Positions 1-6,098 of a stretch of DNA of 64,000 nucleotides are shown here, one piece after another (the first letter of the stretch is position 1; the number at the start of each line of letters is the position of its first letter). The notes beneath the pieces are model-generated. The model did no database searches, was not told the DNA's origin, and saw only the letters and a list, made by a program, of their open reading frames with translations. The DNA comes from Lentisphaerota bacterium (GTDB taxonomy: Bacteria; Verrucomicrobiota; Lentisphaeria; Victivallales; Victivallaceae), in NCBI GenBank assembly GCA_015061625.1, contig SUWG01000012.1, positions 1-64,000 of the forward strand. The letters run 5' to 3'. Both the position numbers and the translations under genes were made by a program.

Positions 1-386
1 GCAACAGTAATTATTTCTAATTTATACATCTGCACAACCGCCTCAACGCAGTTGAGCAACTTCACGTTTTGCTTCACTGCAAAACTCTTCACATCTTCAC
101 TTACCGTTTTACGGTAAACTTCACACCCCCACCCTCTCCCCTTTTCAAGAAAAGCGGAATATTGTGCCGCTCCGTTGTCGCGGCTTGATCGAAGCAACAG
201 TAATTATTTCTAATTTATACATCTGCACAACCGCCTCAACGCAGTTGAGCAACTTCACGTTTTGCTTCACTGCAAAACTCTTCACATCTTCACTTACCGT
301 TTTACGGTAAACTTCACACCTCCCCCCCCTCTCCCCTTTTCAAGAAAAGCGGAATATTGTGCCGCTCCGTTGTCGCGGCTTGATCG
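1..386. repeat. Two tandem copies of a 193-bp hairpin-rich repeat
   Basis: The unit starting GCAACAGTAATTATT occurs at 1 and again at 194, and the second copy ends directly at the stop codon of the thioredoxin gene (387). Each unit carries five short inverted repeats in a row: CTCAAC/GTTGAG, TTTTGC/GCAAAA, TTACCGT/ACGGTAA, CTTTTC/GAAAAG and GCCGC/GCGGC, with the first ones separated by CTTCAC motifs. Two more copies and a partial one lie at 4463-4907. Short open frames through it are not genes. Function unknown; position at gene 3' ends would fit a termination or RNA-structure role. Confidence 0.85.
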
Positions 387-701
387 TTACTTCAAAAGTT
401 TCATCACATTTTCTTCATCGGTAACGCCGACGATCCTGCCGATCTCCTCGCCGTCTTTGAAAACCACCAGTGTCGGAATGATATCTACCTCAAATTTGGC
501 GGCGATGACCGGAGCTTCATCGATGTCGAGTTTGGTCACTTTCACCTCTTCCGGGAAACGATCCTGATCGGCAAGCGCATTAAGCACATCCCCCTGTTTA
601 TGACATGGGCCGTGCCACTGGGCAAAAAAATCCACCAGCACCACGCCCCGCCGGACTGCCGTCGGAAAAGCGGCGGCAGAAAGTTTCTCGATCTTCTTCA
701 T
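387..701 (-). CDS. Thioredoxin-like protein with HGPC active site
   Basis: A 104-residue single-domain thioredoxin-fold protein. The order fits the family: a VDFFAQW strand, the active-site loop, a KLDIDEAP strand and the cis-proline segment DIIPTLVVFKDGEE. The first active-site cysteine is replaced: the loop reads W-H-G-P-C instead of W-C-G-P-C, with codon CAC at 612-614. Without the nucleophilic N-terminal Cys it cannot do normal dithiol-disulfide exchange; the remaining Cys could act as a monothiol. The start at 701 is chosen because AGGAGG lies 8 bases upstream; a longer frame to 725 would overlap the promoter at 724-752. It is downstream of cysS on the same strand but has its own promoter. 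Confidence 0.85.
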   Translation of the reverse strand: MKKIEKLSAAAFPTAVRRGVVLVDFFAQWHGPCHKQGDVLNALADQDRFPEEVKVTKLDIDEAPVIAAKFEVDIIPTLVVFKDGEEIGRIVGVTDEENVMKLLK

Positions 702-723
702 AAAAAAATCCTCCTCTTGAAAC

Positions 724-752
724 AATATAAGTCAAAGGGAGGAAAAAAACAA
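724..752 (-). promoter_or_regulatory. Promoter of thioredoxin-like gene
   Basis: On the minus strand TTGTTT (747-752), a 17-bp spacer and TATATT (724-729). It is about 23 bases upstream of the ATG at 701. Confidence 0.6.
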
Positions 753-789
753 GTTTTGTTCCCGGAAAAATTTTCAGGAAGGATAACTT

Positions 790-2202
790 TTACAGTTTTT
801 TCAGTTCCCATGCGCCGCCGGGAATATCTTTGATGGCGTAACCGAGTTTAGTCAATTCATCGCGCAAACGGTCGCTTTCAGCAAAGTTTTTCGCTTTGCG
901 GGCCTCGGCACGGGCTTCGGCAAGTGCCGTAACTTCCGCCGGGATCGCCACACTTTCACGCACCGCATCCACATCAAAACAGGCGATCACCCGGTCAAAA
1001 TCACGGAATGCCGCCATGACCGCCTGCGCTCCGGCTTTGGTCAATTTCTGCTCATCCGCCAGACGGTTGGCTCCACGCATAAGTTCAAATGCCGCCGCCA
1101 GTGCCGGGGCAATATTCAAATCATCCGCCATTGCCGTTGCAAACGCATTTTTAGTGCTGTCGATCAATTCTCTGACCTCCGTCCCGTCGCCATCAGCGGC
1201 AATGGTGCGCAAACGGTCAAACAGATCGTCAAATTTACCCAGCGTTTCTCTGGCCTGATTCAACGCATCCATGGTAAAATTCAATTTTTTGCGGTAGTGC
1301 GCACCGACCAGCACCCAGCGGATCTCTCTGCCGCTGAAGCCCTTATTCTGCAAATCACGCAGAGTGTAGAAATTGCCCAGTGATTTGGACATTTTCGTAC
1401 CATCGACCATCAGGTGTTCGCAATGCAGCCAGTAATTGACCCACTTTTTGCCGGTCGCACTCTCGCTCTGGGCAATTTCGTCCTCGTGATGCGGAAACAT
1501 ATTATCCACACCGCCGGTATGGATGTCAAAAGATTCCCCCAGATACTTCATCGACATCGCACTGCATTCGATATGCCACCCCGGACGGCCCTTGCCCCAG
1601 GGACTTTCCCAATAGACATCGCCGTCGGCTTCATCCCACGCTTTCCACAAAGCGAAGTCGCCCACCGCATCTTTGGCATATTCATCCGTGGAAATACGCA
1701 CCCCGTCACGCTGATTTTCCCGGTCGATACGGGCCAGTTTGCCGTAATCTTTGCATTTGTCGATGGAAAAATAAATGCACTTATCCTGCGCCTGATAAGC
1801 AAAACCTTTATCCATAAGAGTCTGGATCAGATTGATCATTTCCGGGATGTGATCGGTCGCCGCCGGATAAACTTCCGCCGGTTCGATACGCAAGGTTTTG
1901 ATATCTTCAAAAAACGCCTTTTTGTATTTCGCCGTGAATTCCCGCAACGGCAACTCCTCTTTGCGGGAATCGCGGATGGTCTTGTCATCCACGTCGGTAA
2001 GATTCATCACCTGGGTCACCGCAAAGCCGAAATACTCCAGCGTGCGCCGCAGGATATCCTCAAAAACATACGCCCGGAAGTTACCGATATGGGCAAAATT
2101 ATACACCGTGGGGCCGCAGGTATACATTTTGGCGCAACCGGCAGTAAGCGCTTCAAAATTCATCTGACGGCGTTCAAGAGTGTTGAAAAAACGCAAATCC
2201 AT
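790..2202 (-). CDS. cysS: Cysteinyl-tRNA synthetase
   Basis: Charges tRNA-Cys with cysteine in the cytoplasm. The 470-residue product is a normal length for a class I CysRS. The N-terminal Rossmann domain shows the zinc Cys and HIGH signature ([16 protein letters not shown]), the further zinc ligands in [10 protein letters not shown] and FPHHEDE, and the KMSKS loop as [11 protein letters not shown]. The C-terminal helical DALR-type region follows. The start at 2202 is preferred over 2229 because GGAGAAGG sits directly before it. The next gene on the strand is the thioredoxin-like protein 88 bases downstream. Confidence 0.97.
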
Positions 2203-2241
2203 TTGTCCTTCTCCAATTATTGAATTCATGTATTATCATAT

Positions 2242-2270
2242 AATGTAATCTGTCAGAATGGATTTTTCAA
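2242..2270 (-). promoter_or_regulatory. Probable cysS promoter
   Basis: On the minus strand TTGAAA (2265-2270), 17 bp, TACATT (2242-2247). An alternative -10 (GATAAT) lies a few bases downstream, so the exact box is uncertain. Confidence 0.4.
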
Positions 2271-2390
2271 CTTGCAAAGCGCATATATCGGCTCTATATT
2301 ATTGTTAATGTCTTGATTTTTGTAAAATTGACATATAGAATTGTACAACAACGTTTACAATAACATACAAAAGATGTTACTGCGAGTGTG

Positions 2391-2690
2391 ATTTGTCAAC
2401 CGGAAAACACGGTTTGTCAGCACCCGGCGGATGCAGTGTGAGGCAAGGTCGGGTTTTGCGACGGGTACGGAGCAGGAGCAAGGCGCGAAAAAAGACCGCA
2501 ATGCGCCGCCGCAGGTTAGATTTGTCAACCGGAAAACACGGTTTGTCAGCATCCGGCGGATGCAGTGTGAGGCAAGGTCGGGTTTTGCGACGAGTTCGGA
2601 GCAGGAGTGTACTGTGTACTCGACTGCTCCGGCGCAGGAGCAAGGCGCGAGATTGACCGCAATGCGCCGCCGCAGGTTAGATTTTTAAAG
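2391..2690. repeat. GC-rich imperfect tandem duplication with hairpin insert
   Basis: The block starting ATTTGTCAACCGGAAAACAC occurs at 2391 and again at 2520 (129-bp offset), then a third partial start (GGTTAGATTT) at the end. The second copy carries an extra stretch of about 36 bp (2606-2641) forming an inverted repeat CGGAGCAG/CTGCTCCG with GTAC motifs inside. The remaining part of the 528-bp gap (2203-2390 and 2691-2730) is AT-rich and holds the cysS promoter. Frames open across both strands of the repeat have no RBS and no recognisable protein, so no gene is called. Confidence 0.7.
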
Positions 2691-2730
2691 GTTAAGACAA
2701 TAATAAATACGAGTTTTTGCAGGGAAATAT

Positions 2731-4392
2731 ATGAAATCATTTATCGATCAATTACGTTGGCTCTTTGACCCCAAAGACAAACGCAAATTTATATCCATCA
2801 CCTTTTTAATGGCCCTTTCTGCGCTGCTGGAGTTGCTCGGCATCAGTATCCTGCTGGGAGCCGCCGCCGTTTTCCTTTCGCCGCAAAGCGAAATCGCCTG
2901 CCGCACTTCACAGATCATGGCCGCGCTTTTACCGGGTATTCCGGAACGATATCATATTGCGCTGGCTATCGCCGCCATCGGTATTCTGCTGGCAGCCAAA
3001 AACATCTTTGCCGCATGGATCGTTTCACTCCAATCGCGTTTCATCTTTGCCAAACGCAACGAATTGGCCAAACGGCTGTTCAAGACTTATTTATCTGCCG
3101 ACTATGAAACATTTTTCCGGCTTTCCAATGATTACTGCTTCAGCAGTTTCAACCGTCTGACCGAAATGGGAAATCTGGTTCTGCTGCCCAGTATGCAAGT
3201 GTTGGCAGATGTCATGGTCATCGCCATTCTGACCTTTGCCGCCGTATACCTCTACCCGGTGATCTCCCTTTCCGGGATCGGTTTTATGCTGCTCACCGCC
3301 CTGACCGTTTCGACGATTTCCGGCAGAGCCAATAAAAAATACGGTCGGCAACTGCTCGAATATTCCCTGATCGAAAGCCGGATGCGGCAAACCGGCATCT
3401 GCGGCAAAAAAACCATCTCATGCGCCGCAAAATCCAACTTTTTTCTGGAAAAATTTGTCGTTTCCCATCAGAATCTCAATGACATTTACCGCAAACTTTA
3501 CAACCTCGGTCAACTGCCCCGGCTTTCGCTTGAATCCGCCTCGGTACTGCTGGCCGGCGGCGTTTTTGCCGTAATGATACTTCTGGAAGTACCCCACAGT
3601 GAGATCATGCTCACTTTTGCCATCCTGACGGCCGTCATCGGCCGCATCCTGCCGGCGATCAGCCGCTGTCACTACAATTTGACCCTCATCCGTCAACACA
3701 TCCCGCTGCTGGAATCTTTCTGCCGCGACCTGCGCACCATCCCCTCCGAATCTGCCGCCACCGGCCCGGCCGCCGATGCCGGAAAAACGATTTGCTTCGA
3801 CCGTATATCCTTTGCCTATAACGGCGGAAAAAAGATATTCGACGACTTCTCTCTGATCATCGAACCCAAAACGTCGATCGCCATCGCCGGACGCTCCGGA
3901 AAAGGGAAAAGCACTCTTGTCGATCTGCTTTTGGGCTTGCTCAAACCATCTTCCGGGACTATTTCCGCCGGAAATATCCCCATAAACAACGATCTTGATG
4001 CGTGGAGAAAACAGATCGGCATCGTGCCGCAAAATATCTTTCTTCTGGAAGGAAGCGTCGCTGAAAATGTCGCATTCGGAGAAGAAAATATCGACCTTGA
4101 CAAAGTGAAAAATGCATTGCATCTTGCCGGTTTGAGCGACTTTGCCCCGGAATTTGAATTGACCGCTCAAGGCAACCTTTCCGGCGGTCAACGCCAGCGC
4201 ATCGGCATCGCCAGAGCCTTGTATCACGAAGTGAAAATATTGATTTGCGATGAAGCCACCAGCGCACTGGATGCCGAAACCGAAAACGCCTTCTGCGAAG
4301 TACTTCAGGAACTGAAAGGCAAAGTGACCCTGATCGTCATTTCCCACCGGGAATCCACCCTCGACGCCTGCGATCGGAAAATTATTTTATAA
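2731..4392 (+). CDS. ABC transporter, fused permease and ATPase (PglK/MsbA-type)
   Basis: A 553-residue half-transporter of the exporter class. The first 310 residues are hydrophobic with about six membrane segments. The nucleotide-binding domain follows with Walker A GRSGKGKST (about residue 388), Q-loop region IGIVPQNIFLL, signature LSGGQRQRIGIARAL (about 483), Walker B ILICDEATSALDAE and the H-loop VISHRES near the end. The N-terminus resembles PglK-like lipid-linked oligosaccharide flippases, and a glycosyltransferase lies convergently downstream at 4968-5999. An envelope glycan or lipid export role is therefore inferred, but the substrate cannot be read from sequence. The RBS (AGGGA) is weak. 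Confidence 0.88.
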   Translation: MKSFIDQLRWLFDPKDKRKFISITFLMALSALLELLGISILLGAAAVFLSPQSEIACRTSQIMAALLPGIPERYHIALAIAAIGILLAAKNIFAAWIVSLQSRFIFAKRNELAKRLFKTYLSADYETFFRLSNDYCFSSFNRLTEMGNLVLLPSMQVLADVMVIAILTFAAVYLYPVISLSGIGFMLLTALTVSTISGRANKKYGRQLLEYSLIESRMRQTGICGKKTISCAAKSNFFLEKFVVSHQNLNDIYRKLYNLGQLPRLSLESASVLLAGGVFAVMILLEVPHSEIMLTFAILTAVIGRILPAISRCHYNLTLIRQHIPLLESFCRDLRTIPSESAATGPAADAGKTICFDRISFAYNGGKKIFDDFSLIIEPKTSIAIAGRSGKGKSTLVDLLLGLLKPSSGTISAGNIPINNDLDAWRKQIGIVPQNIFLLEGSVAENVAFGEENIDLDKVKNALHLAGLSDFAPEFELTAQGNLSGGQRQRIGIARALYHEVKILICDEATSALDAETENAFCEVLQELKGKVTLIVISHRESTLDACDRKIIL

Positions 4393-4406
4393 AACGGGAT
4401 ATTTTT

Positions 4407-4460
4407 GGGAGAGGGGAAAAACTTCCTTTTCACGGGAAAAGGAAGTTTTTCCCCTCTCCC
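4407..4460. terminator. 25-bp perfect hairpin after the ABC transporter gene
   Basis: Arms 4407-4431 and 4436-4460 are perfect reverse complements around a 4-base loop (ACGG). The stem begins GGGAGAGGGGAAAAACTTCC. It lies 15 bases after the transporter stop. It lacks a classical T-tract directly after the stem, so it may be a processing or repeat-derived structure as much as a terminator. Confidence 0.65.
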
Positions 4461-4462
4461 AA

Positions 4463-4907
4463 ACCCTCTCCCCTTTTCAAGAAAAGCGGAATATCGCGCC
4501 GCTCCGTTGTCGCGGCTTGATCGAAGCAACAGCAATTATTTCTTATTTATATATCTACACAACCGCCTCAACGAAGTTGAGAAACTTCACGTTTTGCTTC
4601 AATGCAAAACTCTTCACATCTTCACTTACCGTTTTACGGTAAACTTCACACCTCCCCCCCTCTCCCCTTTTCAAGAAAAGCGGAATATTGTGCCGCTCCG
4701 TTGGCGCGGCTTGTGCGGAAGCAACAGCAATTATTTCTTATTTATATATCTACACAACCGCCTCAACGCAGTTGAGCAACTTCACGTTTTGCTTCACTGC
4801 AAAACTCTTCACATCTTCACTTACCGTTTTACGGTAAACTTCACACCTCCCCCCCTCTCCCCTTTTCAAGAAAAGCGGAATATCGTGCCGCTTCCGTTGT
4901 CGCGAAT
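4463..4907. repeat. Second array of the hairpin-rich repeat
   Basis: A partial unit tail (4463-4525), a full unit at 4526-4720 and a third at 4721-4907 match the repeats at 1-386. Differences between copies fall mainly in loops and spacers: the first hairpin loop is GCA or GAA, the second TTCACT or TTCAAT, while the stems are kept. It fills the gap between two convergent genes. Nothing coding is seen in 4393-4967. Confidence 0.85.
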
Positions 4908-4967
4908 ATAAACGGACAATACGGACAATACGGCATTGTTTCATCCGGCGACACAACCTGGCTTAAT

Positions 4968-5999
4968 TCAACAGCGATAATCAAGTAAATTTTTAATTGC
5001 TGAAACCATTTTTTCCGTGGTTGAAACACTCTCGCACCATCCGCCTTGCGGTTGCACATTGACCGGCCCCGTAGAAAAAGTTTTCCTGCAGATAATATAT
5101 TCAGCGGCAACAAGTATTCGTGGTATTTTCATACACTCGGCCAATGCAAATAATCCGCTCTGATTGCCAATAACTCCCTTGGCTCCGGCAAAATATTTGG
5201 CAAAATCCATCATCGAATCAACTTTTCCAATGTATTCCAACTGAAAATACTTTTGACAGAAATCATCATATTCTTCCGGCAATCCGGCAAAGACCAAATC
5301 GTTGCAAAACGGTTGCAACGCCGCCATGTCAACAAAAACATTCCGGTAACGCCCGGTGGCAATCAAAATTATTTTGTCACGATATTTAAAATCTTCTTCC
5401 GCATAAATCACCGGTTTCCAGAATTCCCGCGGCAAATGCTCATCCACTAAATTGTAATAGTAATTTTGAATCTGCCCGGAAGCAAAATTTATCATCATTT
5501 TACGGAAAAGATCAAGATCAAAAGCATTATCAGGCAACTCATCACCGTATGTTACCCGGCTTATATATTCCTGTTGTTTCAACATTCCGGCAAGGAATTG
5601 CGCCCCATTGACCGTCATTCTCACAGATTTAAAAGGATGCCCCATTGCTTCCAGCCCCGGTTCTCCGACATTGGTACGCAAATGAAACCGGAATTTCGTC
5701 ATCCCGTAAAAAGCGGCCAATTCCCGGCAGAAATATAATGAATAAAGAATATCACCGTTATGACCGCTGTGACAAAAAATAATTTCCCGATTCTCACTGC
5801 AATTACGATTGACCGGAAAAAATTCCACCGGTGAACCGATGAGGTACGGTAATTTTAAAACAGCCAGTTTTTCTTTCCAACTGCTCTGTTTGTTTTTCAC
5901 CACAACAGTCAGATTGCGCAACATAATTTCCACCCGGAACGGCAATAACCGGATAGATGCTTTTATCAATCGCTTTGCCATGTTGATAATAACTTTCAT
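4968..5999 (-). CDS. Glycosyltransferase family 9-like protein
   Basis: A 343-residue protein with a GT-B look. The N-terminal half has HSGHNGDILYSLYFCREL, resembling the GD(x)hhh start of heptosyltransferases. The C-terminal half has GAKGVIGNQSGLFALAECMK, the donor-binding region typical of GT9/ADP-heptose transferase relatives. It probably adds a sugar to a surface glycan. The start at 5999 has GGAGGA six bases upstream, while the longer frame to 6035 has none. Family assignment is moderate and the substrate is unknown. Confidence 0.6.
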   Translation of the reverse strand: MKVIINMAKRLIKASIRLLPFRVEIMLRNLTVVVKNKQSSWKEKLAVLKLPYLIGSPVEFFPVNRNCSENREIIFCHSGHNGDILYSLYFCRELAAFYGMTKFRFHLRTNVGEPGLEAMGHPFKSVRMTVNGAQFLAGMLKQQEYISRVTYGDELPDNAFDLDLFRKMMINFASGQIQNYYYNLVDEHLPREFWKPVIYAEEDFKYRDKIILIATGRYRNVFVDMAALQPFCNDLVFAGLPEEYDDFCQKYFQLEYIGKVDSMMDFAKYFAGAKGVIGNQSGLFALAECMKIPRILVAAEYIICRKTFSTGPVNVQPQGGWCESVSTTEKMVSAIKNLLDYRC

Positions 6000-6098
6000 A
6001 TATTCCTCCGTCAGTATCAAAGTAACCAACTGCACGTTAACGTTTCAACTTAAGGGCAATTCCGTATGCCCCGAAAACAACTTTTGTTTGCAACAAAA

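Follow-up and report, generated by a model that had tools for sequence, protein, structure and literature searches.

CTTCAC-linked hairpin arrays of Lentisphaeria as a probable family of non-autonomous mobile DNA with a branch inside prepilin genes

The 64,000-nucleotide stretch analyzed here (the window) comes from contig SUWG01000012.1 of a 2.7-Mb Lentisphaeria metagenome-assembled genome (MAG; GCA_015061625.1) that is 90.9% complete; in our handles, where G, C, and L denote genomes, contigs, and loci, it lies on G000:C44. The window carries two loci of short hairpins (1-386 and 4464-4904), which consist of four units of about 194 bp, arranged as two tandem pairs, and one half-unit (Table 1). 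An earlier note on this DNA had described a dispersed five-hairpin repeat at these loci, and this is confirmed: each of the four units has the same five hairpins, h1 to h5. Unit 4 is truncated after h5, and the first array copy may be truncated as well, as window base 1 coincides with the end of contig C44. Over 141 nt, unit 2 is 97% identical to unit 1, and the other two units are 91% and 93% identical to it. The minus-strand gene next to the first locus (387-725) encodes what we take, from our own reading of the translation, to be a thioredoxin, and two convergent genes (2731-4392, plus strand, and 4968-6035, minus strand) face the second locus with their 3' ends. We propose that the window arrays are probably intergenic members of a non-autonomous family of mobile DNA in uncultured Lentisphaeria of the gut, made of strings of hairpins that share an unpaired CTTCAC tag.

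The loop changes noted earlier (GCA/GAA, TTCACT/TTCAAT, and GTTGTC/GTTGGC) are real, and the stems do stay intact between copies. Across the first 179 nt of the four copies, with 57 stem nt per unit, none of the 10 substitution columns falls in a stem (hypergeometric P=0.019). Taken alone, with four copies, this avoidance of stems is suggestive but weak. On either strand, the unit folds better than its dinucleotide shuffles do (z -3.0 to -5.3). Scans for intrinsic terminators found none in 4300-5000 and one weak site in 1-800, which lies outside the array and is no more than shuffles give; a terminator reading of the window arrays was rejected on these scans. An Rfam covariance-model search at the gathering score matched two tRNAs in the window and nothing at the arrays.

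Table 1. Coordinates of array units, hairpins, and linkers in the window
Feature	Position	Strand	Description
Array unit 1 (A type)	1..193	+	leader GCAACAG...CACAACC; h1-h3 with CTTCAC joints; then CCCTCTCCCC, h4, and h5
h1, unit 1	43..55	+	TCAAC-GCA-GTTGA
h2, unit 1	66..85	+	GTTTTGC-TTCACT-GCAAAAC
h3, unit 1	101..117	+	TTACCGT-TTT-ACGGTAA
h4, unit 1	141..154	+	CTTTTC-AA-GAAAAG
h5, unit 1	154..170	+	GCGG-AATATTGTG-CCGC
CTTCAC linkers, unit 1	60-65, 87-92, 95-100, 119-124	+	unpaired motif common to other sub-families
Array unit 2	194..386	+	directly abuts the stop codon of the minus-strand gene 387-725
28-bp perfect inverted repeat	4404..4463		separate repeat family; arms 4404-4431 and 4436-4463
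Extra 3' half-unit (h4+h5 module)	4464..4523	+	97% identity to 327-386
Array unit 3	4526..4720	+	
Array unit 4	4721..4904	+	3' end truncated

How widespread are such arrays? The exact window family (A) is low-copy in its own genome, where a 386-bp query is matched over most of its length by the two window loci alone, but the wider hairpin family is not. A search for CTTCAC brought up families whose stems differ widely but which share this unpaired linker. The pattern CTTCAC-N-CTTCAC-N-CTTCAC has 28+22 = 50 matches in the own genome, overlapping ones included, versus 5+0 for a reversed control. By eye, these form at least three sub-families: A (the window), B (contigs C9, C26, C36, and C43), and C (C10, C11, C39, and the end of C44). 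Another dispersed repeat (CCGGCGGATGCAGTGTGAGGCAAGGTCGGG...) has two copies within 2390-2689 of the window, and by eye similar sequence is found next to the B arrays on C36 and C43. On C9, two B arrays in inverted orientation enclose 2.1 kb in which no transposase was seen; this interval includes a gene that, from its translation, we presume to be Sel1-repeat-like.

The triple-CTTCAC pattern matches 35 of 60 relatives, made up of 26 of 34 genomes of the same genus, a count that includes G030, whose match is no hairpin, and 9 of 26 outside the genus. Among the sequences listed from outside the genus, only G035 and G038 resemble family members. Most of the listed matches from Bacteroidota and other non-Lentisphaeria are, by eye, CTTCACAT runs lacking hairpins, and they were dropped before the stems were counted. 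Across 265 loci, which cover the own genome, the relatives, and 53 named contigs preselected for carrying arrays, 122 of 206 distinct linker-to-linker segments contain a perfect stem of at least 5 bp, where mononucleotide shuffles predict about 7. A tight pattern scan of viral contigs gave 2 matches. On the viral contig L214 (IMGVR_UViG_3300005259_000081), at about 5847-5890, a hairpin stands between tags in CTTCAC-GTTGCC-ACC-GGCAAC-A-CTTCACATCTTCAC.

One branch of the family, P, lies inside genes. On named Lentisphaeria contigs, P arrays are found within prepilin-type genes, behind the first FTLIELLV motif, and each array closes with an FTLIEL of its own. The terminal hairpin is TCAATCAGCG-TTCA-CGCTGATTGA, and its 3' arm consists of pilin codons. 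Serial modules separated by FTLIELLV copies occur within single genes at L385, L391, L403, L409, and L427. P sites were located through the DNA of this terminal hairpin, and because the search pattern encodes FTLIE, it favors pilins.

Are the P arrays open in the prepilin frame? A first set of 88 distinct sites came partly from a protein search, which favors in-frame copies. After 10 sites at contig edges were dropped, 69 of the remaining 78 had an upstream prepilin-like motif, and all 69 were in frame and open; the other 9 had no motif within 450 nt, yet were open through the array. A second set, collected by DNA pattern with a motif definition slightly wider than that of the first, held 42 sites, 3 of them at edges. 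All 31 with a motif were in frame and open, and all 8 without one were open. L239 and L546 are one place, present in both sets and counted once among the 100. Over all loci there are 140 distinct sites, comprising 16 at edges, 20 without a motif, and 104 with an upstream motif; in this last group 103 are in frame and open, one is in frame with a stop (L554), and none fits another frame only. L555 (G013:C4), a listed place with stops, had no P terminal or motif on reading. The prepilin frame is open in 55 of 55 distinct arrays, whereas each of the others meets a stop in at least 54. In 54 of the 55, array length leaves the same remainder modulo 3; the exception, L384, is still in frame, and an upstream shift must therefore compensate. 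At the level of single hairpins, lengths of distinct segments are multiples of three in 30 of 36 cases in P arrays versus 23 of 91 outside them.

The P element supplies its own FTLIEL codons, so that a full prepilin motif stands downstream of it. The first 17 nt of the second motif occur in 8 variants among 61 modules, against 38 variants among 50 for the first motif of the host. The second motif becomes more variable at nt 18; as the hairpin extends to nt 14 and nt 15-17 vary rather little among hosts, we place the edge of the element at nt 14-17. In the L449 protein, the second copy (residues 55-78) is recognized above threshold by Pfam N_methyl and by NCBIfam TIGR02532. Other palindromes share the slot. 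By eye, sequences like the 4404-4463 inverted repeat of the window occur in the prepilin genes at L062 (own genome, C41), L410, L457, and L465, either flanked by FTLIELLV copies or ahead of them. A further palindromic family (TTCACCTGCCCATGGGCAGGTGAAGC...) occupies the prepilin slot at L421, L480, L488, and L496 and again closes with FTLIEL codons.

By sequence alignment, the window arrays are relatives of the P branch. The A-unit leader aligns with the P leader at a score above 2000 of 2000 shuffles, and the array alignment exceeds 1999 of 2000. A 168-amino-acid open frame (4405-4911) spans the second array entirely, together with the inverted repeat that precedes it; as a sign that the window arrays once lay in a pilin gene, this frame is suggestive only.

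Compensatory changes in a larger alignment were, with a bias to gene 3' ends, what the earlier note had staked its case for selection on folded DNA or RNA on, and the stems do covary. In h2, T-A/C-G and A-T/C-G exchanges are seen in all four combinations, and 98.2% of cells are paired. Double changes occupy 13 cells, a number reached by 0 of 500 shuffles, and slid controls gave zero; the number of h2 pairs changed on both sides, however, is 2, a value that 468 of 500 shuffles attain and that is not raised above them. The terminal hairpin of P has A-T to G-C and C-G to T-A double changes despite having one coding arm. Its 3 double-change cells, from 8 distinct rows, are a modest signal, as 14 of 500 shuffles score as high. 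In the h2 alignment, rows are distinct sequences rather than independent events. Template-switch correction of imperfect palindromes likewise restores stems, and for this reason covariation is also compatible with a neutral cause; stem conservation may reflect either selection or such correction. The reading of the earlier note survives the refuting test that it set itself, through the covariation in the larger set and the 3' end bias given below, but four window copies cannot by themselves establish selection.

Position is a further regularity. Among own-genome arrays, 17 of 22 scorable flanks, from 12 clusters, are gene 3' ends (one-sided binomial ~0.008); these flanks were scored with crude calls of open reading frames (ORFs), some short ones possibly spurious, and a cluster near C44:69400 was left out. 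In a sample of C-type arrays, 33 of 51 among the matches listed lie no more than 300 nt behind the 3' end of a tRNA or tmRNA gene, compared with 40 of 1020 random places (4%) drawn from the same loci. Among the same matches listed, the distance is 39-124 nt in 31 of the 33, the strand is the same in 33 of 33, and the neighbors are genes for Ser (16), His (6), Gln (3), Phe (2), and Val (2) tRNAs, with one each for Arg, Pro, Glu, and tmRNA. Two C-type arrays lie on L254, a contig filed under a Clostridia MAG, which could be a case of transfer or a misbinned Lentisphaeria contig. The earlier statement that arrays sit at the 3' ends of genes thus holds for most scorable flanks of the own genome but not for the relatives in prepilin coding starts and behind tRNA or tmRNA genes.

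Occupancy differs between closely related genes. L425, L494, and L427 are pilins from three genomes that share 94-96% nucleotide identity over 216-432 nt, and their leaders carry P, K, and P+K modules, respectively, the L494 leader being clipped by a contig end. L449 has a module, while the closest relative found, L479 (71% amino acid identity), has none. At L453, one of two neighboring paralogues (70% amino acid identity) has a module and the other does not, and L269 is a similar pair with and without (84.7% nucleotide identity). With up to 2 mismatches allowed, the P terminal occurs in 28 of 197 genomes of the class, in 8 of 85 genera and two families; the reversed control gave zero. Many contigs of G013 and G014 start or stop within a P array, which indicates that the repeats break assemblies and that copy numbers are lower bounds.

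Given the varied positions of the relatives and the near-identical pilins that differ in array content, movement is the main story. Dispersal, a shared tag, covarying stems, position preferences, in-frame coding, and variable occupancy are all observed, and the family is best explained as REP- and RPE-like in behavior (the two element classes compared below), with one branch that regenerates the prepilin motif it interrupts. By analogy with TnpA_REP, a nuclease or transposase may recognize the hairpins in single-stranded DNA, with CTTCAC serving as a REP-like guide for recognition. Copies would then persist where they are harmless, either behind genes or in the prepilin leader, which prepilin peptidase would remove anyway. 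A bolder extension of this idea, which we think somewhat unlikely, is that the arrays form a homing-like class of tagged single-strand hairpins moved by an enzyme, of which one branch targets and rebuilds prepilin cleavage codons and another settles behind tRNA and tmRNA genes. The rebuilt codons would form an arm of the element's own terminal hairpin, and the many pilin-like genes of the host would become harmless landing sites.

Several results weigh against mobility. No mobilizing enzyme was identified. Y1_Tnp is present in 6 of 16 P-bearing versus 5 of 18 P-lacking genomes of the genus and has 0 matches in the own genome, and none of nine Y1 loci of the genus (L442, L446, L448, and L548-L553; those of G006, G009, and one of G011 were left out of this check) has three or more CTTCAC or GTGAAG nearby; L549 and L550 have two GTGAAG 84 nt apart. 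RVT_1 is found in 3 of 16 P-bearing versus 5 of 18 P-lacking genomes and Transposase_20 in 1 of 34, all of the same genus. REP-associated (RAYT), retroelement, and IS110-type partners were accordingly rejected for want of association with the arrays. A target-site duplication signal was also absent in 42 modules of the P branch, tested as a 7-nt overlap at nt 18-24 only (4.83 within-gene matches versus 4.75 permuted, p 0.26). With neither an enzyme nor a target-site duplication signal, transposition is something we infer rather than observe, and P modules could instead travel by homologous recombination among the FTLIELLV repeats. Individual loci also fit poorly: at L554 (G027:C106), a full-length match in the protein search, the P module is in frame but a stop follows the first motif and precedes the array; L525 continues into a broken pilin frame that is short, closing after 24 codons; and at L465 the module, which belongs to another family, does not share the frame of the leader upstream of it. 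Finally, most copies stem from MAGs, and they are related among themselves. At L554, an in-frame ATG lies two codons past the stop, from which translation could restart. L547 (G051:C48), from the same order, has a Y1 transposase gene with the same tandem hairpin repeats on both sides, as in a REPtron. Its repeats contain CTTCAC, with the CAC as part of the stem, and we rejected it as a partner, keeping it as a lead only.

Could the arrays instead act as RNA? If transcribed as 3' untranslated hairpins, they might shield mRNA or define where it ends and be maintained by selection at the RNA level, which would suit the 17 of 22 flanks at gene 3' ends (subject to the crude ORF calls), the C-type arrays behind tRNA and tmRNA genes on the same strand, and the good folding of the unit. 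We consider this improbable nonetheless: the window arrays have no intrinsic terminator, P arrays sit at coding starts, near-identical pilins vary in array content, and folding on both strands indicates no single RNA strand. We regard it as similarly unlikely that the arrays are inert duplications whose stems were perfected, arm from arm, by template switching during replication. Such correction yields compensatory changes too, and the 5' arm of the P terminal hairpin is the reverse complement of pilin codons, as a snap-back copy would be, but the shared CTTCAC linkers, the position preferences, and the spread to 28 of 197 genomes are left unexplained. Template-switch maintenance may act together with mobility.

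A rival to be taken seriously for the P branch is homologous exchange that uses the FTLIELLV repeats. Here P modules would be leader cassettes with FTLIELLV codons at both ends, moved solely by homologous recombination and with no transposase. Serial modules with FTLIELLV between them, many motif-bearing paralogues per genome, and the lack of a target-site duplication signal all favor such cassettes, as does the finding that the repeats flanking P agree within L425 and within L427 but differ between the two genes. However, cassette exchange leaves unexplained the arrays outside pilins, such as those of the window, and the prepilin slot is, by eye, shared by several families that are unrelated. 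The second motif also loses its conservation at nt 18 without fading, which speaks against exchange, although the hairpin reaches only to nt 14 and nt 15-17 are themselves fairly uniform among hosts. On balance, we judge recombination as the sole cause possible and somewhat unlikely, and mobility of hairpin-string DNA remains our preferred account.

How does this family compare with known repeats? We drew on excerpts of PMC2229807, PMC3733652, PMC6649704, and PMC8266576. The excerpts of PMC2229807 describe small mobile sequences fused in frame, among them the Rickettsia palindromic element (RPE), hairpin DNA of 105-146 bp found between genes and in frame within protein genes; a table there gives terminal inverted repeats of 12 bp for RPE-like elements. 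The arrays resemble RPE as short hairpin DNA with both intergenic and in-frame coding locations, and in-frame presence inside protein genes was found in the P branch only. Unlike RPE, P arrays, as searched, occupy one motif of one protein class, bring the codons of that motif along, and consist of several tagged hairpins in series. Repetitive extragenic palindromes (REPs), as excerpted from PMC3733652, have an unpaired GTAG or CGTC tag beside a palindrome of 20-40 bp, and the excerpts of PMC8266576 provide TnpA_REP as the analogy for recognition of single-stranded hairpins. REPs and the bacterial interspersed mosaic elements (BIMEs) that go with RAYT transposases are like our arrays in their short, conserved, unpaired tag, their grouping, and their mostly extragenic location (PMC3733652, PMC8266576), but the tag here is CTTCAC/GTGAAG, neither GTAG nor CGTC, and no RAYT association was found in this genus.

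Bacterial miniature inverted-repeat transposable elements (MITEs) are likewise small, non-autonomous, and dispersed, and some have open frames, according to the excerpts of PMC2229807; the arrays differ from them in having no target-site duplication signal (P branch) and no parent transposon that we found. In Nematomorpha mitochondria, coding palindromes keep protein and fold together, as excerpts of PMC6649704 report. They share with the P arrays the presence of inverted repeats in coding sequence, but both of their arms encode conserved protein, whereas in P it is the 3' arm of the terminal hairpin alone that falls within a conserved motif, and related genes differ in occupancy. The excerpts of PMC2229807, PMC3733652, and PMC6649704 contain no description of CTTCAC arrays, Lentisphaeria, or prepilin targeting, and those of PMC3733652 do not mention Victivallis, Lentisphaer, or GTGAAG. 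A search of the literature on Lentisphaerae or Victivallis with palindromes or pilins returned nothing of the kind among the matches listed.

Why does such a family matter? If our explanation is true, CTTCAC would add a new type of tag to the REP world, and the P branch would be a mobile element that preserves three things together, namely a reading frame, a fold of the DNA, and a motif for protein sorting. It would also account for the odd N-termini of predicted pilins and for contig breaks in some Lentisphaeria genomes. With this family one can also ask, in a natural setting, whether it is selection or replication repair that maintains palindromes.

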